In this document: positions 1 through 32,155 of the stretch, piece by piece
How positions within the stretch are numbered: position 1 is the first letter of the stretch
Layout of the letters: every line of letters begins with the position of its first letter
Origin: Xanthobacter autotrophicus Py2
GTDB taxonomy: Bacteria > Pseudomonadota > Alphaproteobacteria > Rhizobiales > Xanthobacteraceae
Length of the DNA: 64,000 bases
Assembly (NCBI GenBank): GCA_000017645.1
Contig: CP000781.1
Location: 1 to 64,000 of the forward strand
Direction of reading: 5' to 3'
The notes under the pieces: generated by a model
What the model saw: only the letters and a program-made list of their open reading frames with translations
Databases searched by the model: none
What the model was told of the DNA's origin: nothing
Made by a program: the position numbers and the translations under genes

Positions 1-329
1 TTTAGGGCTCACTTTCCGACTGCCTTGCGTTGCGTTCCGATCGTCGGGAGTGCTGGCCTCGAGTTCATCTGTGCCTCGCCCCCTCCTCGCGGCAAGGATC
101 GCGCATGACTTTGCGCTGATGCCGTAACAGCGTCCTGCGGACGTACCTGAAAACACCGCTCTCAATTTGCAAAAGTGCGCGCAGCCCGAAGGGGCGCGGA
201 CGGCTTTTGCGTCACTAACCAGGGAACCGCGTCGAACGCGGTCGGGGCTCGATGCTCAAACCTCATGCGCCGGCCGCGCGTCGTGCCGGATCGAACACGT
301 TTCAGCCTGCCCTTGCGGAGACCGCCGGA
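1..329. other. Leader region upstream of dnaA
   Basis: No gene is recognised here. I looked for consensus DnaA boxes (TTATCCACA) and saw none on either strand, so the sequence does not support calling this the replication origin. In many alphaproteobacteria the origin lies elsewhere, near hemE. The stretch presumably holds the dnaA promoter, but no convincing -35/-10 pair stands out. An open reading frame continues upstream of the chosen dnaA start to position 252, but its residues do not look like DnaA. Confidence 0.5.
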
Positions 330-1850
330 ATGGAATGCGCGACGACCGCGACCACCCCTTGGGAGCGCGTCCGTCAGCGCCTGCGTGAAGAGATCGGCGA
401 GGAGAAGTTCACCAGCTGGTTCGCCCGTATGGACCTCGACAAGCTGACCGCCGACGCGGTCCAGCTCTCCGTCCCCACGCGCTTCCTCAAGTCGTGGATC
501 CAGGAGAATTATCTGCCCCGCATCGCCGACATCTGGGCCGAGGAGAGCGGCGCCAAGCGGCGCGTGGACCTTGCCGTGCGCAATGCGTTCGCCCGTCCCG
601 TGGCGCTGAAGGCGAACACGGTGCGCGAGGTGGTGACCGAGCGCACCGACATGCATTCCGGCGATACCCGCCAGCAGTCGGCCCGGATCTCCGACGGGCG
701 CTCCACCGATGCCCGCGGTGCCGATGGACGCGGCTCTGATGCGCGGGCTGTCGAGCCCCGTGCCGCGGCGGCCGCCCTGTCCGACGCGGTGGCAGGGGAC
801 GTAGCGTCCGGTTCCCCCCTCGACGCGCGCCTGACCTTCGAGACCTTCGTGGTGGGCAAGTCCAATTCGCTGGCTTTCGCCGCCGCCAAGCAGGTGGCCG
901 AGAGCGCCCCCGGCTCGGCGCCGGTGTTCAACCCGCTCTATCTCCATGCGGCCGTGGGCCTCGGCAAGACGCACCTGTTGCAGGCCATCGCCCGCGCCGG
1001 CGCGGTGGGCGGCCGGCGCACCACTTACCTGACCGCCGAGCGCTTCATGTATGGCTTCGTGGCCGCCCTGAAGACCCATTCGGCCATTGCCTTCAAGGAT
1101 GCCCTGCGCACCATCGACACGCTGGTGATCGACGACCTGCAGTTCCTGAAGGGCAACAATCTCCAGCAGGAATTCTGCCATACCCTCAACGCCCTGCTGG
1201 ACGGCGGGCGGCAGGTGGTGGTGGCGGCGGACTGTCTGCCCGGCGAGCTGGAGCATCTCGACGAGCGGGTCCGCTCGCGCCTCGCCGGCGGCCTGGTGGT
1301 GGAACTGGCCGCGCTGGAGGAGGACCTGCGCCTCGAGATCCTCAAGGCCCGCTACCAGACCCTGACCGAGCAGCATCCGGGCTTCGCGGTGCCGGCGCCG
1401 GTGCTGGAGTTCCTGGCGCGCAGCGTCGGCCAGAGTGGGCGCGACCTCGATGGCGCGCTGAACAAGCTGCTGGCCTTCAACCAGCTCACCGGCGAGCCGG
1501 TGACGCTGGAGATGGCGGAAAACGCGGTCAAGGACCTCATCCGCCCCACCGATCCCAAGCGGGTGCGGGTGGACGACATCCTGCGCGTGGTGGCCAAGCA
1601 TTATAATGTGTCGCGCGCGGACCTGCTGTCCCAGCGCCGCACCGCCACCGTGGTGAAGCCGCGCCAGATCGCCATGTATCTGGCCAAGACCCTCACGCTG
1701 CGCTCGCTGCCGGAAATCGGCCGCCGCTTTGGCGGTCGTGACCACACCACCGTGCTGCACGCGGTGCGTAAGATCGACGGCCTCGTCAACGCCGACCGGG
1801 CACTGGCCGAGGAAATCGAGGTGCTGAAGCGCCTCGCGCTGGAGGCCTGA
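330..1850 (+). CDS. dnaA: Chromosomal replication initiator DnaA
   Basis: DnaA is the AAA+ protein that binds origin DnaA boxes and melts the origin. The N-terminal domain I begins [20 protein letters not shown]. Domain II is a long Asp/Arg/Ala-rich linker (about residues 110-165). The AAA+ core has Walker A GLGKTH near residue 210 and Walker B VIDDLQFL near 265. The C-terminal DNA-binding domain ends in the DnaA signature [15 protein letters not shown] near 467-482. I chose the ATG at 330 (506 residues) because domain I follows it at once. The frame is open to 252, and those 26 extra residues look non-homologous. No strong ribosome-binding site decides the start. The gene is followed by a terminator and then dnaN. 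Confidence 0.97.
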
Positions 1851-1891
1851 GCGGGTCGTCATCGACGCTTCGGGCCCATGGTCCGCGAATC

Positions 1892-1918
1892 CGGCGCCTG
1901 ACGGCGCCGTTTTCGTTT
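1892..1918 (+). terminator. Intrinsic terminator after dnaA
   Basis: A perfect 7-bp stem CGGCGCC / GGCGCCG with a four-base loop is followed directly by TTTTCGTTT. It begins about 40 bases after the dnaA stop codon. This suggests that dnaA and dnaN are separate transcription units. Confidence 0.7.
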
Positions 1919-2272
1919 GTGCCGGCCGAGTGGAGCGGGGCGTTCCAGCGGCCGTTTCAGCCGCGCGGGTGCGGGCTGCGGTGGATCGCGGGGGCAGCGG
2001 CGGCGCCATGCGGTAAAAATAAGCCAGCCGCCCTTGCCTTGGCGCGCCTTGGGCGGCAATGTCTGCGGCCCGGCATCCGTCCTCCCGGCGGGTGCCTGCG
2101 CGACGCTTCCCGCGTTCCGCGCAATCGCCACTTGGCGCGCGATCCACCTTGCCCGTGACAGCGGGGGAGGGCGGAACGGGCGCCGTCCCCGAACGACGAG
2201 GCGGACCCACCGGCGGGACGTAGGCGCCCGTGGGAGGCCGGCTCCAGAGCGAAGAGTGAACGGGCCAGGACC
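1919..2272. other. Intergenic region between dnaA and dnaN
   Basis: About 350 bases hold no recognisable gene. Open frames on both strands read as low-complexity Arg/Gly/Pro sequence and look like chance frames in GC-rich DNA. A short AT-rich patch (GGTAAAAATAAG, about 2011-2022) could be part of the dnaN promoter. No clear promoter pair was found. Confidence 0.4.
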
Positions 2273-3394
2273 ATGAAGGTCACCGTCGAGCGCGCCGAGC
2301 TTCTCAAATCGCTCAGCCACGTCCACCGCGTCGTCGAGCGGCGCAACACCATTCCGATTCTCGCCAACGTGCTGATCAAGGCGGGCAAGAACGGGCTGGA
2401 ACTGAAAGCCACCGACCTCGACCTGGAGGTGGTGGAGAGCGTTCCGGCCGAGACCGGCCAGGCCGGGGCCACCACCGTGCCCGCCCATGTGCTCTACGAC
2501 ATCGTGCGCAAACTGCCCGAGGGTGCGCAGGTGCAACTGGAGGCGGGCGGCGAGCGGGGCACCCTCACCGTCAAGGCGTCCCGCGCCCGGTTCTCGCTGC
2601 AGACCCTGCCCGAGGCCGACTTCCCGGACCTCGCGGCGGGCGAATTCTCCCATACCTTCAAGGTGAAGGGCGCGGACTTCCGGCGCCTGGTGGACAAGAC
2701 CCAGTTCGCCATCTCCACCGAGGAGACGCGCTATTACCTGAACGGCATCTATCTCCACGTCACCGAGGGCGCCGGCGGCAAGTCCATGCTGCGGGCGGTG
2801 GCCACCGACGGCCACCGCCTCGCCCAGGCCGAGCTGGAGGCGCCGGCGGGCGCGGCCGGCCTGCCCGGCGTCATCGTGCCGCGCAAGACCGTGGCCGAGA
2901 TCCAAAAGCTGCTGGAGGACAAGGAGGCGGAGGCTACCGTCTCGCTCTCCACCACCAAGATCCGGGTGCAGGTGGGCTCCATCGTGCTCACCTCCAAGCT
3001 CATCGACGGCACCTTCCCTGATTATGGAAGGGTTATTCCCCAGGGCAACGACAAGACCCTGATCGTGGACAAGGACGAGTTCGCCGCCGCGGTGGACCGC
3101 GTCTCCACAGTGTCCAGCGAGCGCGGGCGGGCGGTGAAGCTGTCGCTGGCCGAGGGCAAGATGACACTCTCCGTCACCAATCCCGATTCGGGCAGCGCCA
3201 CCGAGGAACTGGAGGTGGACTACACCGCCGAGCCCCTCGATATCGGCTTCAACTCCCGCTACCTGCTGGACATCACCTCGCAGCTGGAAGGCGACACGGC
3301 TGAACTGAAGCTGGCCGACCCCGGCTCGCCCACCCTGGTGCGCGATTCCACCAAGACGGATGCGCTCTACGTCCTCATGCCCATGCGGGTGTGA
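2273..3394 (+). CDS. dnaN: DNA polymerase III subunit beta (sliding clamp)
   Basis: DnaN is the ring-shaped clamp that tethers polymerase III to DNA and recruits MutS, ligase and other partners. The 373-residue product has the usual family length and the three repeated clamp folds. It opens MKVTVERAELLKSLSHVHRVVERRN-like, contains ATDGHRLA in the middle domain, and ends with the family's C-terminal tail YVLMPMRV. The start fits the family N-terminus exactly. recF follows after about 185 bases without an obvious terminator, so co-transcription is possible. Confidence 0.98.
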   Translation: MKVTVERAELLKSLSHVHRVVERRNTIPILANVLIKAGKNGLELKATDLDLEVVESVPAETGQAGATTVPAHVLYDIVRKLPEGAQVQLEAGGERGTLTVKASRARFSLQTLPEADFPDLAAGEFSHTFKVKGADFRRLVDKTQFAISTEETRYYLNGIYLHVTEGAGGKSMLRAVATDGHRLAQAELEAPAGAAGLPGVIVPRKTVAEIQKLLEDKEAEATVSLSTTKIRVQVGSIVLTSKLIDGTFPDYGRVIPQGNDKTLIVDKDEFAAAVDRVSTVSSERGRAVKLSLAEGKMTLSVTNPDSGSATEELEVDYTAEPLDIGFNSRYLLDITSQLEGDTAELKLADPGSPTLVRDSTKTDALYVLMPMRV

Positions 3395-3579
3395 TCGCAA
3401 AGGCCGGTGAGCGCCGCTCGCGGGCCCTTGGTCCAGCCCGCGCGGCGGCCTGCTGGGCGATACTCTTCCGGCGCCGGTCGAAGACCGGGGCCGTTGGGGT
3501 GAGGCGGAAGCATATGTCGATCGCCGTCGCGTATCCTGCGGGAACGGCCGCATCTGATTGAAGACCGGCCCGCAGGTCC

Positions 3580-4716
3580 ATGCCCCACGCCGCCATCCGC
3601 AAGCTCACCCTCACGGCCTTCCGATCCTATCCATCGGCGCAGGTGAGCGTTGAGGACGGGCCGGTGGTGCTCACCGGGCCGAACGGCGCGGGCAAGACCA
3701 ATATTCTGGAAGCGCTCTCCTTCCTCTCTCCCGGCCGGGGGCTGCGGCGTGCCCAGCTCGGCGAGATCGGCCATCGCGCGCCGGGTGCCGCCGGCGAGCC
3801 ACCCTGGGCGGTCTCGGCCCTCGTGGAGGGCGCTCTGGGCGAGGTCCGCCTTGGCACGGGCTACGATCCGGTGCAGGAAGGCGGGGTGCGGCGCTGCCGC
3901 ATCGACGGCGAGCCTGCGCCTTCCGCCAACGCCTTCCTCGACCATCTGAAAGTGCTCTGGCTGACGCCGGAGATGGATGGCCTGTTCCTGGGGCCGCCCG
4001 GCGACCGGCGGCGCTATCTCGACCGCCTCGTGTTGGCGGTGGACGGCGCCCACGGCACAAGGGTCAACGGCCTGGAACGGGCGCTGCGCTCGCGCAACCG
4101 GCTTCTGGAGGAGAACGGCTCGGCGCGCTTCCTCGATGCGGTGGAGCACGAGGTGGCGGAACTCGCCGTGGCGGTGGCGGCGGCGCGGCTGGAGACGGTG
4201 GCCCGGCTCGGCGCCGAGATCGCCGCCCACCGCGACGATGCTTCCCTCTTTCCCTTCGCGGAGCTGGCCCTGGATGGGGCGGTGGAGCGGCTCATCGCCG
4301 TCCATCCCGCGCTGGAGGTGGAGGACCGTTACCGTGCCCTCCTGCGCGACAACCGCCCCCGCGACCGGGCGGCGGGCCGCACGCTGGAGGGGCCGCACCT
4401 CACCGATCTGTCGGTGAGCCATGGCGAGAAGCAACTGCCCGCCGCGCGCTGCTCCACGGGGGAGCAGAAATCCCTGCTCATCGGCCTCACCTTGTCCCAT
4501 GCGCGGCTGGTGGCCTCCATGCAGGGCTTCTCGCCCATCCTGCTTTTGGACGACGTGGTGGCCTATCTCGACGCCGCGCGCCGCACCGGCCTGTTCGAGG
4601 CCCTGGCCCGCCTCGGCGCGCAGGCCTGGATGACCGGCGCCGACCCCACCGCCTTCTCCGCGCTGGACGGCGCCGAGCGCTTCGAGGTGGCGCCGGGGAC
4701 GATCGGGCGGGCGTAA
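3580..4716 (+). CDS. recF: DNA replication and repair protein RecF
   Basis: RecF is an SMC-like ATPase that loads RecA at gapped DNA with RecO and RecR. The 378-residue product has Walker A GPNGAGKTN at about residues 33-41, the ABC-type signature region STGEQKSLLIGLTLSHARL near 300, and Walker B ILLLDDVVAYLD near 318-328. The N-terminal ITKLTLTAFRSY-like segment (here IRKLTLTAFRSY) is typical. It is the third gene of a dnaA-dnaN-recF series. The next gene is an ABC transporter binding protein rather than gyrB, which often follows recF in other bacteria. Confidence 0.97.
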   Translation: MPHAAIRKLTLTAFRSYPSAQVSVEDGPVVLTGPNGAGKTNILEALSFLSPGRGLRRAQLGEIGHRAPGAAGEPPWAVSALVEGALGEVRLGTGYDPVQEGGVRRCRIDGEPAPSANAFLDHLKVLWLTPEMDGLFLGPPGDRRRYLDRLVLAVDGAHGTRVNGLERALRSRNRLLEENGSARFLDAVEHEVAELAVAVAAARLETVARLGAEIAAHRDDASLFPFAELALDGAVERLIAVHPALEVEDRYRALLRDNRPRDRAAGRTLEGPHLTDLSVSHGEKQLPAARCSTGEQKSLLIGLTLSHARLVASMQGFSPILLLDDVVAYLDAARRTGLFEALARLGAQAWMTGADPTAFSALDGAERFEVAPGTIGRA

Positions 4717-24214: not shown

Positions 24215-24853
24215 TCACCCGCCCTTCATGCGCGCGGCGATGCGCTGGCCGATCTCGTAGGCCCGCTGCTCCAGCAGCACCGGCATCTCGCACACATAGG
24301 TGAGGGAGCGCGCCCGCTCGTCGAAGATGCGGGCGTCCCACGTCAGCTGCTCGTCCAGGGTCTTGGTCTCCGCGCTCTCGGCGGGGACGTTGGTCATGAC
24401 GGCGGTGGCCTTCGCCTGGCTTAGTTTCTCGCCCTCCTCGCGGATGCGGTCGGCGAGGCGCTGCTGGCCGCGGGCATAGCGCTCGATGCCGTGCATGATG
24501 CGGCTGCGCTCGGTGTTGATGATCTCGTAGGTTCCAGCCATCACCCGCAGCAGCCTTGTGTTGGCCTCGGGGCCGGCCTCGCGCGCGAAGAGCTGGAGCA
24601 CCACGTCGACCTCGTCCATGGGGGTGCGGCGGGAGGAGATCCTCTGGGCGACGGTGGCCGCCTCCTGGTCGTCGGTCCATTTGCCGGCGGTGGCGGGGTC
24701 CGGCCCGTTCCACACCTGGGCGAGATCGATCTCCGGCGCCTTGCGCTGCATGCATGGCCAGTCCGGGTCGGCCTTGGGCTGGGCCAGCGCCGGCAGGGAT
24801 GCCGCCAGGAGCAGGCCGGCGGCGATGAGGGGGAGCGAAACGGAGCGTATCAC
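24215..24853 (-). CDS. Secreted hypothetical protein of the alcohol-oxidation/lut-like cluster
   Basis: This 212-residue protein has a clear signal peptide (MIRSVSLPLIAAGLLLAASLPALAQ, cleavage after ALA) and a helical mature domain with Cys in DWPCMQRK and YVCEMP. The segment DWPCMQRKAPEIDLAQVWNGPD opens the mature protein. It overlaps the permease gene by four bases (ATGA), so it is translated with the ABC components. I infer that it works in the periplasm with that transporter, possibly like the exported LutG component of methylotroph lut clusters. The specific function is unknown. Confidence 0.8.
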   Translation of the reverse strand: MIRSVSLPLIAAGLLLAASLPALAQPKADPDWPCMQRKAPEIDLAQVWNGPDPATAGKWTDDQEAATVAQRISSRRTPMDEVDVVLQLFAREAGPEANTRLLRVMAGTYEIINTERSRIMHGIERYARGQQRLADRIREEGEKLSQAKATAVMTNVPAESAETKTLDEQLTWDARIFDERARSLTYVCEMPVLLEQRAYEIGQRIAARMKGG

Positions 24854-25722
24854 GCGGCTTCTCCTTTGGGACCGCCACGCCGCCCCATGATGCCGCGCCC
24901 GGGATCATAGGCGACGACGGCGAGGGCGAAGAAGACGATGGTGGTGCCGAGCACGACGGCGAAGGAGGTGGGCTCGAACACGCCGTAGAGCGCGTTGCGC
25001 ACCAGCTCCACCGCATGGGTGAAGGGATTGACCATACAGACGATGTAGAGCGTCTCGCTCGCGTCGCGCACCCGCCACAGGGGGTAGAGGGCGGAGGAGG
25101 CGAAGAACATGGGGAAGATGACGAAGTTCATCACGCTGGCGAAATTCTCCAGCTGCCGGATCAGCGAGGAGATGACCAGCCCGATGGAGCCCAGCATCAG
25201 CCCGGTGAGGATGAAGGCGGGCAGCGCCGCGAGGTAGCCGATGGGCGGCATCTCCACCTCCCACAGCCGGGCGATGGCGAGGAACACATAGACCTGCGCC
25301 AGCGACACCACCACGCCCGCCACCAGCTTCGACAAGAGCAGGAACCAGCGCGGGAACGGGCTGGTGAGCAGCACCCGCATGGAGCCGACCTCCCGGTCGT
25401 AGACCATGGAGAGGGAGGACTGCATGCCGTTGAACAGCTGGATCATCACCGCGAGGCCGGGCGTCACATAGACCTCGTACAGCACATAGGTGTCGTAGGG
25501 CGGGATGATGGACACGCCCAAAACGCTGCGGAAGCCGGCTGCGAAGATGAACAGCCACACCAGCGGCCGCACCAGAGCGGAGAGGAAGCGCTCCTTCTGC
25601 TGCACGAAGCGCAGCAGCTCGCGGTTCACGATGCCGCCAAGGCATACCGCATGGCCGGCCAGGCCCAGCGGGCGGGCGACGGGCGGGGCGAGGACGTGGG
25701 GCGGCAGCACGGTGTCGGTCAT
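24850..25722 (-). CDS. ABC-2 type transporter permease, PQQ-alcohol-dehydrogenase-associated (PedC/LutF-like)
   Basis: This is an inner-membrane ABC-2 permease of about 290 residues with six hydrophobic segments. The region IVNRELLRFVQQKERFLSALVRPLVWLFIFAAGFR marks the family encoded beside PQQ-dependent alcohol dehydrogenases. A later segment reads YDREVGSMRVLLTSPFPRWFLL. I chose ATG 25722, preceded by GAGG at good spacing; ATG 25743 is also in frame and would overlap the ATPase gene. It is in one operon with the ATPase upstream and a secreted protein downstream. ABC-2 permeases usually export, yet here a binding protein gene is nearby, so direction is open. Confidence 0.9.
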   Translation of the reverse strand: MTDTVLPPHVLAPPVARPLGLAGHAVCLGGIVNRELLRFVQQKERFLSALVRPLVWLFIFAAGFRSVLGVSIIPPYDTYVLYEVYVTPGLAVMIQLFNGMQSSLSMVYDREVGSMRVLLTSPFPRWFLLLSKLVAGVVVSLAQVYVFLAIARLWEVEMPPIGYLAALPAFILTGLMLGSIGLVISSLIRQLENFASVMNFVIFPMFFASSALYPLWRVRDASETLYIVCMVNPFTHAVELVRNALYGVFEPTSFAVVLGTTIVFFALAVVAYDPGRGIMGRRGGPKGEAA

Positions 25723-25732
25723 GCTGGTGTCC

Positions 25733-26530
25733 TCATGCCGCATCCCCGGCGCGGGCCGCCGTCATGGCGCGGAAGGCGGCTTCCAGCGCGGCCGTGCCGC
25801 CCTCGGGGACAGGTTCCGCCTCGGGGCGGGCGGGGGCGAGATGGCCGCCGGCCACCTCGCCGGCGGTGCCGTGGGCGATGATGCGGCCCTTGTCGAGCAC
25901 GTAGATGTCGTCCTCCGGATGTACCTCGTCGAAGATGTGGGTGGCCCACAGCACCGCGAGGCCATCCTCGGCCACCAGCCGGCGCACGATGTCCACGATG
26001 GCGGCGCGGGAAGAAAGGTCGAGGCCCACGGTGGCCTCGTCCAGCAGCAGCAGGCGCGGGCGATGGATGAGGGCGCGGGCGATCTCCACCCGCCGCGCCT
26101 GCCCGCCAGAAAGGGTGCGCACCTTCTCGTGCAGCCGGTCGGCGAGGCCCACCAGATGCAGCAGCGCCGAGATGCGCGCCTTCAGCGGCCGGCCGGAAAG
26201 GCCGTGCAGGGCGCCGTGGTAGGCGAGATTCTGGTTGACGGTGAGGTCGAGGTCCAGCGTCCGGTTCTGGAACACCACCCCCAGCTCCGCCAGCGCCGCC
26301 GATGGTGCGGAGGCGAGGTCGCGGCCGAAGATGCGCACCGCGCCTTCGCGCGTGCTGTAGAGCCGCGTCGCCAGCGAGAACAGGGTGGTCTTGCCCGCGC
26401 CATTGGGCCCGAGCAGCGCCACGAAGCGCCCCGCCGGGACGGTCAGCGACACGTCGTCGAGGGCGCGCCGGGCGCCGAAGGCGTGGCTGACCGCGCGGAT
26501 TTCCAGCGCCGGCGCTTCCTGATCGTTCAT
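25733..26530 (-). CDS. ABC transporter ATP-binding protein, PQQ-alcohol-dehydrogenase-associated (LutE-like)
   Basis: This is the ATPase partner of the ABC-2 permease, 265 residues long. Walker A is GPNGAGKTT, the signature LSGGQARRVEIARAL, Walker B LLLLDEATVGLD and the switch histidine in WATHIFDEV. It belongs to the group found next to PQQ alcohol dehydrogenase genes. I chose ATG 26530 (MNDQEAPALEIRAVSHAFG); the open frame to 26941 runs through a palindromic repeat element and is not coding. The C-terminus has a 40-residue extension rich in Pro/Glu/Ala beyond the core. Confidence 0.9.
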   Translation of the reverse strand: MNDQEAPALEIRAVSHAFGARRALDDVSLTVPAGRFVALLGPNGAGKTTLFSLATRLYSTREGAVRIFGRDLASAPSAALAELGVVFQNRTLDLDLTVNQNLAYHGALHGLSGRPLKARISALLHLVGLADRLHEKVRTLSGGQARRVEIARALIHRPRLLLLDEATVGLDLSSRAAIVDIVRRLVAEDGLAVLWATHIFDEVHPEDDIYVLDKGRIIAHGTAGEVAGGHLAPARPEAEPVPEGGTAALEAAFRAMTAARAGDAA

Positions 26531-26599
26531 GCCGCCTCTCCGGGGCAGTGCGAAGACATGACCGCCTGAACGTCGGCCGGCGTCCGCGTCCCCAATCCG

Positions 26600-26716
26600 G
26601 CCGTCATGCCCGGCCTTGTGCCGGGCATCCACGCCGTGCCGCCAGTACTGCGCTTCGGGAGGTCGCACCCGGCCGATCCGCGTGGATAGCCGGCACAGGG
26701 CCGGCCATGACGTTGG
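26600..26716. repeat. Palindromic interspersed element (RIME/MITE-like)
   Basis: The left end GTCATGCCCGGCCTTGTGCC and the right end, read on the minus strand as GTCATGGCCGGCCCTGTGCC, form imperfect terminal inverted repeats of about 34 bp. Both run on into ATCCACGC. They flank about 40 bp of unique sequence. Each end is itself a hairpin (GGC...GCC). It sits inside a 257-base gap between the beta-propeller and ATPase genes of one operon. The sequence type is familiar from dispersed intergenic repeats of Rhizobiales. No transposase gene is inside. Confidence 0.7.
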
Positions 26717-26787
26717 CTTTGAATCGTTTGTCTGGTGACCATTCGGTTGGCCGCGTCCATGCTGAGGCCGTCGTGAAAGACTGCCAC

Positions 26788-27774
26788 CTATTGGGGCGAG
26801 ACCACAACGCCCCACGGGGCACCGCCGACCTTGATGGATTTCACCACCTTCAGCTCCGGCACGTCGATGACGGACACGTCGTTGGAATTGCCGTTGGTGG
26901 TGAACAGCAGCTTCTCGTCGGGGGTGAAGGCGAGCTGCCATACCCGCTGGCCCACGAGGAGATATTTCTCCACCTCGAAAGTCTCGGCATTCACCACAGC
27001 CACCCGGTTGGCGGGACCGAGCGCCACGAAGGCGCGCTTGCCATCCCTAGTGATGCGCACGCCCACGGGCTGGATGGATTCCTTGGACACGCCGGGGATC
27101 TTGAAATCGATCTTCCTGATGATCTGGCGGGTCTGCGGGTCGATCACCGAGACCGTGCCGCCCACTTCCGCCGACACCCACAGGCGCTTGCCGTCGGCGG
27201 AGAATTCGGCGAAGCGCGGGCGCGCGTCCACCAGCACGTTGCCGATGATCTTGTTGGTCTTGGTGTCGATGAAATGGGCCATGTTGGTGGTTTCGGAGGT
27301 GGCCACCAGCGTGTTCCCGTCCGGGCTCACGGCCATGCCCTCCGGCTCGGTGCCCACCGGCACCTGGGCGATCACCTTGTTGGCCTCCACGTCGAGCACG
27401 GTGACCTGGTTGTCGTCCTCGTTGGCGATGTAGAGCGGGTTGCCGGTGGGATGCAGCGCGAACAGCTCCGGATCGGGACCGGACTTCAGCTTCCGCAGGA
27501 TCTTGAGGGTCGCGGGATCGATCACCTGCACCGCGTGGTCGTCGCTGGCGCAGACATAGACCGCCTTGCCGTCCGGGCTGATGGTGATGCCGCGTGGGCG
27601 CCGGCCCACCTTCACCGTCTGCTTCACCTCCAGCGTGGTGGAATCGATCACGCTGATGGTGTTGCCCTTCTCGTTGGACACATAGACCGTATAGGCGGAC
27701 GCGGCGTCGGCGGCGAGCAGCGCGGCGGCGCCGGCCAGCAGCGCGGCAAGCCGGCGGGGACGAAGAAGGGTCAT
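26788..27774 (-). CDS. YVTN beta-propeller repeat protein, PQQ-alcohol-dehydrogenase-associated (LutD-like)
   Basis: This exported protein of 328 residues has a signal peptide (LRPRRLAALLAGAAALLAADAASA) and about seven YVTN-type repeats, for example YTVYVSNEKGNTISVIDS, GKAVYVCASDDHAVQVIDP and NPLYIANEDDNQVTVLDV. Such repeats fold into a beta-propeller. This subfamily is encoded beside PQQ alcohol dehydrogenases and their ABC transporter. I chose ATG 27774, where the signal peptide begins, with GGAGG nearby on the coding strand. It is downstream of the binding-protein gene by 53 bases. A second propeller gene lies at 30458. Confidence 0.88.
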   Translation of the reverse strand: MTLLRPRRLAALLAGAAALLAADAASAYTVYVSNEKGNTISVIDSTTLEVKQTVKVGRRPRGITISPDGKAVYVCASDDHAVQVIDPATLKILRKLKSGPDPELFALHPTGNPLYIANEDDNQVTVLDVEANKVIAQVPVGTEPEGMAVSPDGNTLVATSETTNMAHFIDTKTNKIIGNVLVDARPRFAEFSADGKRLWVSAEVGGTVSVIDPQTRQIIRKIDFKIPGVSKESIQPVGVRITRDGKRAFVALGPANRVAVVNAETFEVEKYLLVGQRVWQLAFTPDEKLLFTTNGNSNDVSVIDVPELKVVKSIKVGGAPWGVVVSPQ

Positions 27775-27827
27775 GAAGTGTCCTCCCGGACGGTGGCGCT
27801 TTTCGCGCGCTGTCATTTCAGGCCGCG

Positions 27828-29090
27828 TCATTTCAGGCGGCATCGGGATTCGCCCTCGTCGGTGCCGAGGGTGTCGAGGGGGGTGCGCTGGTGCAGGAAG
27901 CCGTCTTCCGGCGCCACCGAGACGATGTCGAGGGGTTGCGCGATGAGCAGCGGCTGGCGCAATTGCTGGTCCCACGGCCGGATGCTCACCGGCACGCCCT
28001 TGAAGGCCGCGAGGCTGAAATCCGGCGTGCGCAGGAATGCGGCAAGGGTGGCGGGGTCGGCGCTTTTGGTGCGTGTGGTCGCCTCGCCGATCATGCGCGC
28101 GGCGACCCAGGCCTGGTAGTCCGCCGGCCGCATGGTGCGGGAGGCCGAGCGCAGGAAGCGGCTCTGCAATTGCGCCGAGCCCCAGGCATCCTGCGCCGGG
28201 TGCCAGGTGGAGGCGGTGAGGCCCTGCGTGCCCACCACGAGGCGCGGCTCGTAGGTGCGGAAGGGAATGTAATTGCCGAAATCGTTGGCCTCGTCCGCCA
28301 CCACGATCACGTCCGCGTCCACGCCCCGGCTGAACACCAAAGCATCGGAACGGGTGATGCTGTCGGAGCGCTCGCGCCCCAGCGGGCCGAAGGTCCAGGG
28401 CTTGTCGGCCACGATCTTCAGCCCGAACTTCTTCGCCGAGCGGCGCAGCGCCTCGGCATAGAGGGCGTCCGCCGGCTGCGGGCCGGTGATGAGGAACAGC
28501 TTGGTCCAGCGCTTGGTGGCGAGGAACTGCACCAGCGCGTCGGTGAGCATGGCGCGGCTCGGCGCCACGTGGAACACGTTGGCCCGGCAGTCCTCGGCGC
28601 GCAGGGCATCGTCGGTGGCGCCCACGTTGAACAGGACGGCGCCCTTGTCCTTCACCGCATCGGCCACCTTGAGCAACTCGGCACCGGGCAGGTTGACGAT
28701 GAGGAGGCGGGTGCCGTTCGCCACCAGGGCGCGGGCGGCCTCCGCGGGGTCGTCGTCCTCGGCCAGCGTGGTGGTCTCAAGGGCGAAGCTCTGGCCGGTG
28801 AAGAGGCCGGTGGTGGTGTTGTCCTTCAGGGCCAGTTCCGCGCCAGCCACGGCCTCGTCTTCCGGCACCGCCAGGAGGTCGTAGAGCGGGGGCGGCGGCA
28901 CGGCACGGGTGATGAGTCCGATGCGGATCTCCAGCGGCTTCGCCTCGGCGTCGGGCTTGGCCGCGGCTGGCGCCGTGGCATCCGCTTGCGGCTGCTGCGC
29001 CTGCGCCAGACCGAGGCCAGCCACCGGGCACAAAGCCGCCACCGCGAGCAGCACGGTCGGTAGCAGCGGGCGAACAACGCGGATCAGCAT
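27828..29090 (-). CDS. Periplasmic ABC-type binding protein, PQQ-alcohol-dehydrogenase-associated (LutA-like)
   Basis: This 420-residue exported protein has a signal peptide ending GLGLAQAQQ and a type-I periplasmic-binding fold: IRIGLITRAVPPPPLYDLLA, GAELALKDNTTTGLFTGQSF, and LIVNLPGAELLKVADAVKD. It matches the family of branched-chain-type binding proteins found with PQQ alcohol dehydrogenases rather than amino-acid importers. It is the first gene of the leftward group binding protein, propeller, ATPase, permease, secreted protein. In methylotrophs the homologous position (lutA) takes part in lanthanide utilisation. The ligand cannot be read from sequence. Confidence 0.88.
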   Translation of the reverse strand: MLIRVVRPLLPTVLLAVAALCPVAGLGLAQAQQPQADATAPAAAKPDAEAKPLEIRIGLITRAVPPPPLYDLLAVPEDEAVAGAELALKDNTTTGLFTGQSFALETTTLAEDDDPAEAARALVANGTRLLIVNLPGAELLKVADAVKDKGAVLFNVGATDDALRAEDCRANVFHVAPSRAMLTDALVQFLATKRWTKLFLITGPQPADALYAEALRRSAKKFGLKIVADKPWTFGPLGRERSDSITRSDALVFSRGVDADVIVVADEANDFGNYIPFRTYEPRLVVGTQGLTASTWHPAQDAWGSAQLQSRFLRSASRTMRPADYQAWVAARMIGEATTRTKSADPATLAAFLRTPDFSLAAFKGVPVSIRPWDQQLRQPLLIAQPLDIVSVAPEDGFLHQRTPLDTLGTDEGESRCRLK

Positions 29091-29148
29091 GGGGCCAAAA
29101 TCAGCATCGCTTGAGCAGGGTCCGTGGCGTCCACGTCCGAAGAGGCGA

Positions 29149-29192
29149 AGATCTAGACACCATCGTCTGAGGGGTGCAACCGAATAGATCTA
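29149..29192. promoter_or_regulatory. Repeated AGATCTA motif in divergent promoter region
   Basis: AGATCTA occurs at 29149-29155 and 29186-29192, each within a small palindrome (TCTAGA and TAGATCTA). They lie in the 177-base gap between the divergent binding-protein gene and the DUF3280-like gene. Spacing of 37 bases and their position suggest a shared regulator site for both arms of the cluster. No matching regulator is encoded in the window, so this is tentative. Confidence 0.35.
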
Positions 29193-29267
29193 AGAAAACA
29201 ATAAGATGTTCCCGGCTTGCCACGCCCGGTGCGGCTGTGACACCCTCACCCCGAAAAGGTTGGCGCC

Positions 29268-29843
29268 ATGTGGTGTGCTTACAAGGGTCTTCAAACCGCC
29301 CGGCGTGTCGGCGCGGGCCTTGCCGTAGCGTTGGCGATCTCTTGCGCCTTCGCGGGGGTGCTCGCCTGCGGGCCGGCGGCGGCTGCGGGCGTGCCCACCG
29401 CCGTGTTCGGCTTTGAATTCTTCGATGATACCCTCGACACCCGGCCCGACGTGCTGGCCGAGCAGGCGGCGCGCCTGAAGCTGGTGAATGCGGAGCTGGC
29501 CCGGCTCATCGCCGAATCCGGCGAGATGGCGCCGGTGGACCTTCAGGGCGAGGCCGCCCGCATCGCCGAGCTCGGGCCCTTCTACAAGTGCAACGGCTGC
29601 GAGGCGGAGATTGCCGGCGCCGCCGGCGCCCAGCTCGAGGTGCTCGGCATGGTGCGCAAGCTTTCCAATCTCATCCTCACGTTCACGATCCGGGTAAAGG
29701 AGGTGGGCGGGACAGAAAGGCTGGTACGCGGCGGACAGGTGGACATCCGCGGCAACACTGACGAATCCTGGCTGCGCGGGGTGCGCTACCTGATGAAGAA
29801 TCGCATCCTTGCGCCGGACCGGCCGCCGCTCGACCCCAGATAG
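29268..29843 (+). CDS. Secreted DUF3280/DUF2380-like protein (LutB-like)
   Basis: This 191-residue protein has a long signal sequence (hydrophobic core VGAGLAVALAISCAFAGVLACG, cleavage near AAA-GVP) followed by VPTAVFGFEFFDDTLD, which is characteristic of the DUF2380/DUF3280 group. FYKCNGCEAEIAGAAGAQ contains a CxxC pair that could bind metal or form a disulfide. It starts the rightward arm, followed by the MxaD-like and propeller genes. Relatives accompany PQQ alcohol dehydrogenase clusters, and no enzymatic role is known. Confidence 0.8.
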   Translation: MWCAYKGLQTARRVGAGLAVALAISCAFAGVLACGPAAAAGVPTAVFGFEFFDDTLDTRPDVLAEQAARLKLVNAELARLIAESGEMAPVDLQGEAARIAELGPFYKCNGCEAEIAGAAGAQLEVLGMVRKLSNLILTFTIRVKEVGGTERLVRGGQVDIRGNTDESWLRGVRYLMKNRILAPDRPPLDPR

Positions 29844-29921
29844 GACCGCCGCTCGCCGTCGGCGCATTTGCACAAGACTACGGCCCGGGGAACGGGCCGC
29901 ACCATCGGAGGAACGTGTTTC

Positions 29922-30458
29922 ATGAAGCTGTTGCTTGCCGCCGCCGCGGCGTTTTCCATTGCGCTCCTGCCCGTCGCTGCCGACGCGCACGGCCCCACCC
30001 GCAAGAAGGTGACGGAGACCGTCGAGATCAACGCCCCCGCCGAGAAGGTGTGGGCCGCCATCGGCAATTTCCAGGACATGAGCTGGCATCCGGCTGTGAC
30101 CGCAAACACCGGACAGGGCGGCAATGCCATCGACGCGACCCGCAAGCTCACGCTGCAGGGCGGCGGCACCATCGACGAGGTGCTTTACAAGTTCGAGCCT
30201 GAGCAGAAGAGCTATTCCTACCGCATCGCGGAAGTGGACGTGAAAGTCCTGCCGGTGACCAATTATTCCTCCACCATCACCGTCACGCCCATCGACGCTA
30301 CCCATTCCAAGGTGGAGTGGCGCGGCGCCTTCTATCGCGGCTACCCCAACAACGATCCGCCGCCGGAGCTGAGTGACGAGGCCGCTATCGCCGCGGTGAC
30401 CGGCGTCTATCGCGGCGGCCTCGACGCCCTGAAGGCCAAGCTGGAAAAGGGCTCCTGA
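29922..30458 (+). CDS. SRPBCC family protein, MxaD-like
   Basis: This 178-residue exported protein has a signal peptide (LLLAAAAAFSIALLPVAADA) and a START/SRPBCC domain: VTETVEINAPAEKVWAAIGNF, DMSWHPAV, KLTLQGGGTIDEVLY. MxaD of methylotrophs has this architecture and helps electron transfer from methanol dehydrogenase to its cytochrome. GGAGG lies ten bases before the ATG at 29922. Its stop overlaps the next start (TGATG), so the two are translationally coupled. The dehydrogenase itself is not in the window. Confidence 0.85.
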   Translation: MKLLLAAAAAFSIALLPVAADAHGPTRKKVTETVEINAPAEKVWAAIGNFQDMSWHPAVTANTGQGGNAIDATRKLTLQGGGTIDEVLYKFEPEQKSYSYRIAEVDVKVLPVTNYSSTITVTPIDATHSKVEWRGAFYRGYPNNDPPPELSDEAAIAAVTGVYRGGLDALKAKLEKGS

Positions 30459-31444
30459 TGGGGCTGAAGGCGAGGGGGGCTGTCGCCGCCCTCGCGCTCT
30501 TGCTGGGTGCTGCCGCTTCTGTCGCTTCCGCTGCGGCGGAGGAAGCCTTCGTCACCGACCAGCCCGGCAACGAGGTGGCGGTGGTGGATCTGCGCGGCAC
30601 GGACGGGGCGCCCGCGCGTCTCGTCGCCCGCATTCCCGTGCCCGGCCAGCCGGCGGGCGTGGCGGTCTCGCAGGACGGCCGGCGCGCCTTCATCACCAGT
30701 CCCGAGGGCAAGGCCCTCAGCGTCATCGATACGGCGGCGCGCAAGGTCATCGCCCGCATCCCTCTCACCGGCGGTCCCCTCGGCGTGGCGGTAGCCCCGG
30801 CCGGACGTCCGGTCTATGTGGCCGACTGGTACGGCGCGCGCCTGCTGGTGGTGGATCCCGACAAGCCCGATGAGATCCGCACCGCGCCTGCCGGCGCCTC
30901 CCCCTCCGGCCTCGCGGTGACGCCGGACGGTGCCTTCGTGCTGTCGGCCGACCGCGACGACGACACCGTCTCCGTCATCGACGCTGCGCGGCTGGAGCGG
31001 GTGGCGGTAATCCATGTGGGCAAGCGTCCGTTCGGCATCACCCTCTCGGCGGATGGAACGCGCGCCTATACGGCCAATGTGGGCTCGGACGACGTGAGTG
31101 TCATCGATGTGGCCGCCCGCGCGGTGGTGGCCACGGTGAAGGTGGGATCGCGGCCCTATGCGGTGGCGCTGACCGGACGCCTTGCCTTCGTCACCAACCA
31201 GTATGCCGGCACCGTGAGCGTGTTCGACGTGGCGACGCTGGAGCCGCGGGGCCTCGTCCATGTGGGCGAATATCCCGAAGGTATCGCAGCCGGCGCCGAT
31301 GGCCGGCAGGTCTATGTGGCCAACTGGTTCGACAACACGCTCTCCACCATCGACGTGCAGACCCTGAAGGTGGTGGCGACGGTGGAGGTGGGTGAGGGCC
31401 CCCGCGCGTTCGGCGCCTTCATCCGGCGCGACGCGAAACCTTGA
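30458..31444 (+). CDS. YVTN beta-propeller repeat protein, second copy
   Basis: This exported 328-residue protein has a signal peptide (residues 1-28, ending ASAAAEE) and about seven propeller repeats such as EAFVTDQPGNEVAVVDL, RPVYVADWYGARLLVVDP, TRAYTANVGSDDVSVIDV and AFVTNQYAGTVSVFDV. It is the same length as the leftward propeller at 26788-27774, but the two are clearly diverged rather than a recent duplication. It is coupled to the MxaD-like gene. Candidate roles are a periplasmic scaffold or metal/cofactor handling for alcohol oxidation. Confidence 0.87.
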   Translation: MGLKARGAVAALALLLGAAASVASAAAEEAFVTDQPGNEVAVVDLRGTDGAPARLVARIPVPGQPAGVAVSQDGRRAFITSPEGKALSVIDTAARKVIARIPLTGGPLGVAVAPAGRPVYVADWYGARLLVVDPDKPDEIRTAPAGASPSGLAVTPDGAFVLSADRDDDTVSVIDAARLERVAVIHVGKRPFGITLSADGTRAYTANVGSDDVSVIDVAARAVVATVKVGSRPYAVALTGRLAFVTNQYAGTVSVFDVATLEPRGLVHVGEYPEGIAAGADGRQVYVANWFDNTLSTIDVQTLKVVATVEVGEGPRAFGAFIRRDAKP

Positions 31445-31512
31445 TATCGTCGGCCCCGGTCATTGACCGATGCCGAGCGGTTCCGCTCACAGGCCATCGG
31501 TCAAGCCGTGCC

Positions 31513-31547
31513 CAAAAAGAAACGACCGGCGGGGATGCCACCGGTCG
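31513..31547 (-). terminator. Intrinsic terminator after fae
   Basis: Read on the minus strand, CGACCGG / CCGGTCG stems (7 bp, extended by GG-CC pairs) are followed by TTTCTTTTT. It lies about 100 bases after the fae stop and right after a 16-codon open frame (31556-31606). On the plus strand no U-tract follows, so it mainly serves fae. Confidence 0.78.
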
Positions 31548-31555
31548 CTTCAGAC

Positions 31556-31606
31556 TTACTTGTTGAAAAATAGGGCGGCCAACCGCTGAAGCAGACCCTT
31601 CGGCAT
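31556..31606 (-). CDS. Possible 16-residue peptide between fae and its terminator
   Basis: The short frame MPKGLLQRLAALFFNK is in the same frame as fae and separated from its TAG stop by 13 sense codons. It is amphipathic and basic, with hydrophobic residues on one face. No strong ribosome-binding site precedes it. It could be translated alone, by stop-codon readthrough of fae, or not at all. Its position before a strong terminator means it is part of the fae transcript. Confidence 0.25.
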   Translation of the reverse strand: MPKGLLQRLAALFFNK

Positions 31607-31645
31607 CGCCGGAAGGTCGCCGCTCTGCCCAGGGTGGTTTCCGCT

Positions 31646-32155
31646 CTAGGCCGCCGCGAAGGGGTGCTTCACCAGATCGCGCTGCTCGGTCGCTTCCTTG
31701 GCGGAGGGGTAACCCGCCACGGCGCGCTCGATGGAGAGCTTGGTCGCCTCGTAGTTGTACTGCTGGATCTTGGCGTCATCCGCCGCTTCCCAGTGGATGA
31801 ACACGCCGACGGAGATGTAGAGGTCGTCGGCCTCGTCCACGGGGATGGTGCCTTCGGCCACCGCGTCCTGCACCGCCTTGGCGACGCCGCGCTGCGCGGG
31901 TCCGAACATCTGCACCGCCTGCCGCGCATCCTTGATGGTCACCTTGTTGAACAACAGGGTGTTGGGCTTGCAGGGCATGTTGGGGGCGAGCACCGCGAGA
32001 AGCGAGGTGAAGCCGTCCTTGTTGTTGGTGAGGCTGTTGCAGAACGCCGTCTCGGCGGCGCTGCCGCGCGGCCCGATGATGAGATCGATGTGAGCCACCT
32101 CGTTGCCGTCGCCGACAAGCGCTTCACCGATCAGAACCTTGTTAATCTTAGCCAC
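31646..32155 (-). CDS. fae: 5,6,7,8-tetrahydromethanopterin hydro-lyase (formaldehyde-activating enzyme)
   Basis: Fae condenses formaldehyde with tetrahydromethanopterin in the cytoplasm, the first step of the H4MPT-linked formaldehyde oxidation pathway. The 169-residue product matches the methylotroph enzyme: [20 protein letters not shown] (with the catalytic His), [28 protein letters not shown] (not contiguous limits), and [20 protein letters not shown]. The start is a GTG at 32155 preceded by GAGGGAGGG. It stands beside the lut/PQQ accessory genes and has its own promoter region and terminator. It strongly implies growth on methanol or another C1 source. Confidence 0.97.

Follow-up and report, generated by a model that had tools for sequence, protein, structure and literature searches.

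The minus-strand genes at positions 24215–29090 of the window (the whole stretch of 64,000 nucleotides analysed, positions 1–64000 of CP000781.1, whose numbering we keep) form, as judged from protein families and gene order, a lanthanide-utilisation (lut) cluster in the order lutG-F-E-B-A. We propose, with a probability of about 0.88, that this cluster and its conserved neighbours serve XoxF methanol dehydrogenases whose genes lie at other sites in the genome of Xanthobacter autotrophicus Py2, which comprises contigs of 5,308,934 (C1) and 316,164 bases. Gene identities, synteny with other loci, the partners in the genome and the co-occurrence in the genus are established here; the locus is already largely expected from known lut systems, and its layout is dispersed.

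Four of the five minus-strand proteins (LutA, LutB, LutE and LutF) pass curated NCBIfam cut-offs, and the families concerned (TIGR03863, TIGR03866, TIGR03864 and TIGR03861) are described in NCBIfam as parts of alcohol oxidation dependent on pyrroloquinoline quinone (PQQ). We gave the lut names by family and position, the genes of Methylorubrum extorquens AM1 themselves lying outside the comparison. The features are as follows, with scores given against the family cut-off where there is one.

24215–24853, minus strand: lutG-like gene, 212-residue secreted protein; homologues stand after LutF in other lut loci
24850–25743, minus strand: lutF, permease of the ATP-binding cassette (ABC) type 2; TIGR03861, 397.3 bits (cut-off 241.35)
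25733–26530 (chosen start, ATG at 26530), minus strand: lutE, ABC ATPase; TIGR03864, 328.7 bits (cut-off 302.25)
26788–27774 (chosen start, ATG at 27774), minus strand: lutB, secreted YVTN beta-propeller; TIGR03866, 523.5 bits (cut-off 287.3)
27828–29090, minus strand: lutA, periplasmic binding protein; TIGR03863, 471.2 bits (cut-off 413.6)
29091–29267, no strand: divergent intergenic region of 177 base pairs (bp) separating lutA from the DUF3280 gene; putative site of the promoters for both groups
29268–29843, plus strand: DUF3280 gene, predicted exported protein; PF11684, 161.9 bits (cut-off 30.1)
29922–30458 (chosen start, ATG at 29922), plus strand: MxaD-like exported protein; PF10604, 127.5 bits (cut-off 27.4)
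30458–31444, plus strand: YVTN2, second secreted YVTN beta-propeller; TIGR02276 repeats, 218.3 bits
31646–32155, minus strand: fae, formaldehyde-activating enzyme; TIGR03126, 251.7 bits (cut-off 118.05)

The starts at 26530, 27774 and 29922 are our own choice and hence approximate. All reading frames of the locus are open, and the GC content (0.65–0.73 across the window in 2-kb steps) shows no break there. The LutG-like protein matches nothing in Pfam or NCBIfam at 1e-3 and is predicted to consist mostly of long helices (predicted local distance difference test score, pLDDT, 92.3). YVTN2 falls under the TIGR03866 cut-off (162 vs. 287.3), and the label "MxaD-like" rests on homologues adjoining other lut clusters, Pfam giving PF10604 alone. 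A first-pass annotation of the window had named a leftward group (binding protein, YVTN propeller, ATPase, ABC-2 permease and secreted protein) and a rightward group (DUF3280, MxaD-like and second YVTN propeller) with fae beside them; every member is present, the first group at 24215–29090 and the others with matches to PF11684, PF10604, TIGR02276 and TIGR03126. It had also stated that neither XoxF, MxaF or ExaF nor a TonB receptor is encoded in the window, and this holds: window 1–64000 contains neither a dehydrogenase of TIGR03075 nor a TonB receptor of PF00593, both genome matches to the former (n = 2) and all those to the latter (n = 3) lying elsewhere.

Synteny with other lut loci

We scanned named genomes with a LutA alignment (17 of 31 LutA rows), kept the best 80 of at least 576 confirmed candidates and then queried the window proteins in these 80 loci. 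LutB was found in 78, LutE in 73, LutF in 73 and LutG in 65; XoxF was present in 40 loci and an NMT1-type binding protein in 37, with 21 for DUF3280, 18 for Fae, 12 for a LutH-like receptor and 7 for MxaD. As many of the loci are cut by contig ends, these counts are lower bounds. LutG, for which the alignment comprised 42 of 63 rows plus the window protein, stands after LutF wherever both are laid out in order. A count of 78 of 80 for YVTN2 was discarded, because the YVTN2 query matches LutB too; the locus layouts, used instead, place YVTN2 next to MxaD in 6 of the 80.

The closest layout is that of three Methylobacterium loci (L041–L043), which share with the window a DUF3280 gene divergent from LutA and a nearby YVTN2-MxaD pair: YVTN2 and MxaD (51% for the MxaD homologue near lutA) are followed by DUF3280, divergent from LutA-LutB-LutE-LutF-LutG, and then by a TonB receptor of lutH type. 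The comparison with methylotroph lut clusters that the first-pass annotation had proposed as a check thus recovers both the A-B-E-F-G order and the divergent DUF3280 gene. In L041, two small open reading frames between LutB and LutE match the published places of lutC and lutD (named by position). The YVTN2-MxaD pair also lies immediately upstream of LutA in three gammaproteobacterial loci (L051, L076 and L117, titled Candidatus Thiodiazotropha, Chromatiales and Lamprocystis), so that its pairing with lut extends past the Alphaproteobacteria.

In phylogenetic trees, the window LutA falls within a nine-row set with Methylobacterium copies and the window LutF within a seven-row set with Methylobacterium copies, each at 99 in the Shimodaira–Hasegawa-like approximate likelihood ratio test (SH-aLRT), with six Ancylobacter-type copies, members of the same NCBI family, standing apart; the trees are quick ones with SH-aLRT support only and carry a long-branch warning (L044, L045, L038 and L039 are among those near the window rows).

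Compared with the lut cluster of Methylorubrum extorquens AM1, as presented in the portion of the publication available to us (PMC7391723), the locus has the same order of binding protein, propeller-type exported protein, ATPase, permease and exported protein; it differs in having no lutC or lutD between lutB and lutE and no lutH adjoining lutG, in placing the LutH-like gene beside xoxF and lanM at C1:3136423–3136842, and in having fae and DUF3280-MxaD-YVTN2 directly beside the cluster. Bradyrhizobium and Sinorhizobium, according to the part available of PMC12628762, likewise have lutABEFG homologues and xoxF, but rhizobial LutH is weak or not found there, whereas the present genome has one clear LutH-like receptor, with 46% identity to the Methylobacterium protein.

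Partner genes in the genome and across the genus

A TIGR03075 search of the genome (three candidates, all scored) returned two dehydrogenases, at C1:2007513–2009129 and C1:5192460–5194076; in 14 control genomes, the same search gave below-cut-off matches in nine and above-cut-off matches in none. Both proteins are closest to the solved lanthanide-dependent XoxF 6oc5 (1149.9 and 1033.3 bits), with 6dam second for both, and each carries Asp in its WDxDG motif (WDYDG and WDFDG). MxaF has Ala at that position of WDx(D/A)G, and Asp there marks lanthanide use. On their sequences, both are lanthanide-type methanol dehydrogenases of the XoxF type.

Near the first xoxF lie members of TIGR03874 (c-type cytochrome), TIGR03871 (MoxJ-like), TIGR03865 (CXXCW), TIGR04557 (SoxYZ-like) and TIGR04559 (zinc metallohydrolase). 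The neighbourhood also holds a second ABC system and a TonB receptor, besides genes of the MtdB and Mch types. The receptor (C1:2013582–2015954) is LutH-like, matching a Methylobacterium LutH candidate at 46% identity over residues 84–873 of 888 (E 5.4e-213); it was the only match to that candidate in the genome search, and the other two TonB receptors gave segments of at most 40 bits in direct comparison. PqqE is encoded at C1:2027967–2029031 (560.9 bits, cut-off 381.35). A secreted protein with four EF-hands (C1:3136423–3136842) scores 156.6 bits to 9pi2, 147.2 to 8dq2, which we take to be Hans-LanM, and 74.6 to 6mi5, and would accordingly be classed as a Hans-type lanmodulin, closer to the Hans than to the Mex type. 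The Hans cluster of lanmodulins in a 2023 study includes Xanthobacter, in the part of that study available (PMC10232371). Around the second xoxF (L004:8892–10715), a stretch of 20 kb contains no lut or xox accessory gene among those queried; the lut cluster would lie about 143 kb from this xoxF across the contig ends, provided that the contig is a circle.

These results bear on several statements of the first-pass annotation. It had read the locus as a lanthanide or PQQ accessory locus, and the synteny together with two XoxF, a LutH-like receptor, the cytochrome, the MoxJ-like protein, PqqE and lanmodulin speaks for that. Its description "without its dehydrogenase" is right for the window but amounts to distance only, with two XoxF in the same genome; the partner it expected elsewhere is found, as two XoxF and one LutH-like TonB receptor at other sites, and the genome search it proposed for xoxF, mxaF and lutH yields the two XoxF, no MxaF and the one LutH-like receptor. 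As separate observations, an ABC system whose binding protein is NMT1/SsuA-like sits between the first xoxF and the LutH-like receptor (L003:12040–14636), and this binding protein recurs near lut in 37 of the 80 named loci; and the first genes of the window (252–4716) resemble dnaA, dnaN and recF by eye at their inspected N-termini, so that the window seems to begin close to a replication origin.

Across 14 genomes of the genus, own included (raw counts, kinship ignored), a dehydrogenase with the XoxF motif occurs in 11, and LutA over its cut-off in the same 11. Both are missing from the remaining three (our handles G152, G156 and G157), of which G152, complete to only 88%, encodes a single dehydrogenase that showed neither of the two motifs. 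LutH is matched strongly (E < 1e-200) in 9 of 14 and the MxaF motif is likewise present in 9, with XoxF but no MxaF motif in the window genome and G153. LutA and XoxF are at most 8 kb apart in G151, G154 and G155, 57–125 kb apart in G041, G073, G094 and G145, and on separate contigs in G113, G130 and G153; linkage therefore varies within the genus, and the separation seen here is one end of a range. The block of HtpX, Fae, YVTN2, MxaD-like, DUF3280, LutA, B, E, F, G and HPRT is kept in all six fetched congener loci of the single-copy type (L118–L122 and L124), whose LutA proteins are 77–93% identical. A seventh fetched congener locus (L123; G130, contig C464, 3699–15500) holds a second, divergent lut-like set unlike these, with a dehydrogenase 38% like XoxF that carries a WDFDG motif, and with LutA, LutB, LutF and LutE sharing 41%, 57%, 70% and 56% identity with their window counterparts; this set has the look of a system in its own right, serving a different alcohol dehydrogenase.

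The TIGR03075 search leaves no third dehydrogenase in the genome that could be MxaF. When the 19.9-kb mxaF stretch of G113 was compared with the genome, its first 6.5 kb were collinear at C1:3232657–3239082, and the rest matched the two xoxF regions and short repeats only, with 40 of 855 first-look candidates scored, so that single mxa genes could be missed; the other flank of G113 had no match within C1:3218000–3232657. In the stretch C1:3218000–3237900 (L199, with congener stretches L178 and L198), the mxaF region is absent at the collinear place, the match ending at C1:3232657, and a transposase-like open reading frame and reductase-like ones were seen by eye past that point. MxaF was likely lost in this lineage. 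Unlike the nine genomes with MxaF, the strain has TIGR03075-family methanol dehydrogenases of the lanthanide type only, and with XoxF and no MxaF it should need a light lanthanide for methanol growth by the XoxF route.

Lanthanide traffic and competing explanations

In the available text on AM1 (PMC7391723), loss of lutE or lutF abolishes growth on methanol with lanthanum (La), whereas lutA, lutB and lutG mutants grow slowly; lutH is required when mxaF is absent; La is held in the periplasm in lutA, lutE and lutF mutants; and the MxaD homologue matters only when La is supplied. LutH-like receptors are widespread in methanotrophs, as far as the accessible part of PMC12482762 goes. Carrying the AM1 scheme over by homology and synteny offers the best reading of the locus, and from it we infer the substrate, direction of transport, regulation, and roles of LutB, LutG, DUF3280, the MxaD-like protein and YVTN2. 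The LutH-like TonB receptor, whose gene adjoins the first xoxF, would let a lanthanide chelate through the outer membrane; LutA, supported by LutB and LutG, would hand the lanthanide to the LutE/LutF transporter, which, after the Methylorubrum work, would move it into the cytoplasm and enable xox expression; and the handling of lanthanide within the envelope would fall to lanmodulin. Methanol would be oxidised by XoxF carrying lanthanide and PQQ, electrons leaving via the cytochrome and MoxJ-like partners, with which the MxaD-like protein probably aids XoxF contact; Fae and the MtdB- and Mch-type enzymes would take the formaldehyde. The DUF3280 protein would be an extra envelope protein of the lanthanide system.

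Several observations weigh against this reading: about 1.98 Mb separate the cluster from the first xoxF and from the gene of the LutH-like receptor; xox genes are inside the fetched flanks of only 40 of the 80 named lut loci, many of these flanks ending at contig ends; G153 and G154 have XoxF and LutA without a strong LutH match, which counts against LutH as a strict companion; ABC-2 permeases are a class better known for export; and the genome search for LutC found no match (it had no positive control, and LutD was not searched genome-wide), while lutB and lutE are separated by 257 bp without lutC or lutD. We do not treat the last two genes as essential for membership, because AM1 lutC and lutD mutants show small or no defects in the available account (PMC7391723).

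An LutEF system that exports is an unlikely explanation, although LutF matches ABC-2 families including the drrB and nodJ exporter models, and the AM1 authors, in the text at hand, allow release in the cytoplasm followed by lanthanide export back to the periplasm (PMC7391723), which makes the direction of the ABC-2 permease the weakest step of our proposal. By analogy, the La kept in the periplasm of the Methylorubrum lutA, lutE and lutF mutants nevertheless points to import, and for PedA1A2BC of Pseudomonas putida KT2440, which is needed for La-dependent growth, the dedicated binding protein was taken as a mark of import (PMC6839425, available in part). The first-pass annotation had left the direction of transport open; import is now indicated, if not fully settled. 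Its view that a binding protein beside an ABC-2 permease is unusual does not stand: TIGR03863, TIGR03864 and TIGR03861 jointly describe this combination, and both Lut and PedA1A2BC have it.

It is much less probable still that the cluster serves a different PQQ alcohol dehydrogenase, Ped-like and acting on larger alcohols, with lanthanide methanol oxidation not its main task. The same families adjoin Ped dehydrogenases, TIGR03861 is named for PedC, and XoxF-type enzymes can accept broad alcohol substrates; but the only TIGR03075 dehydrogenases of the genome are the two of XoxF type, with no ExaF/PedH or PedE partner, fae adjoins the cluster, and MtdB- and Mch-type genes adjoin the first xoxF. 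PedA1A2BC has the same four kinds of protein (binding protein, YVTN propeller, ATPase and permease), yet the Ped genes, as far as that source is available, adjoin the ethanol-type pedE and pedH, whereas the dehydrogenases here are XoxF and distant (PMC6839425). The distance from the first xoxF and the absence of the congeners' mxaF could also suggest a relic whose working link to the distant xox genes has been lost. We regard this as scarcely credible, given the open frames, the block kept in all six congener loci with its well-conserved LutA, and the fact that the 11 of 14 genomes with LutA are the very ones with XoxF. Service to the distant XoxF enzymes is the reading that we retain.

A DUF3280 subfamily linked to lut

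DUF3280 genes are divergent from LutA in 33 of 38 high-scoring cases vs. 0 of 30 lower-scoring ones (68 of 77 rows counted, the nine weakest, below 42 bits, being left out). The modelled fold of the protein resembles TolB-N, CsgG and LpoB, with a predicted structural match over the domain (VIA-align comparison); the DUF3280 protein, and it only, may be likened to the TolB N-terminal domain, CsgG, LpoB, PelC and FlgT. The window protein carries a CxxC pair, which is present in 20 of the 21 rows of our alignment (the window protein and 20 DUF3280 rows of suitable length) and in 16 of 16 sampled members above 140 bits, of which five do not adjoin LutA. We rejected this pair as a mark of lut-linked DUF3280, because it is not specific: 10 of 10 sampled members of 111–129 bits that do not stand beside LutA carry it. 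Among ten sampled members below 75 bits, one has a CxxC pair, at a different position. PF11684 thus appears in three classes: members above 140 bits beside lut, members of about 111–129 bits with the same CxxC elsewhere, and members below 75 bits mostly without it.

Our least expected result, and possibly a new one, is how tightly one DUF3280 subfamily, whose modelled fold is TolB-N-like, goes with lut. TolB unites both domain kinds, TolB-N and beta-propeller, in one protein linking envelope parts, and in this genus the DUF3280 gene group also encodes a secreted beta-propeller; DUF3280 and a propeller may therefore act as a TolB-like adaptor. We put forward only as a tentative and rather doubtful proposal that bacteria handle lanthanides with the help of the lut-linked DUF3280 protein, a so far unrecognised component that, together with YVTN2 or LutB, would form a two-protein adaptor between the lanthanide receptor or XoxF and LutEF. 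Some Calvin-cycle bacteria assimilate methanol carbon as CO2. If the lanthanide role is true, this could explain why DUF3280 is enriched, so far without explanation, in genomes that carry the Calvin cycle (PMC7895386).

In conclusion, the accessory genes of the window are now matched to dehydrogenases, a receptor, a PQQ gene and a lanmodulin scattered over the same genome, and DUF3280, a family of unknown function, gains a strong genomic link to lut and a modelled fold.

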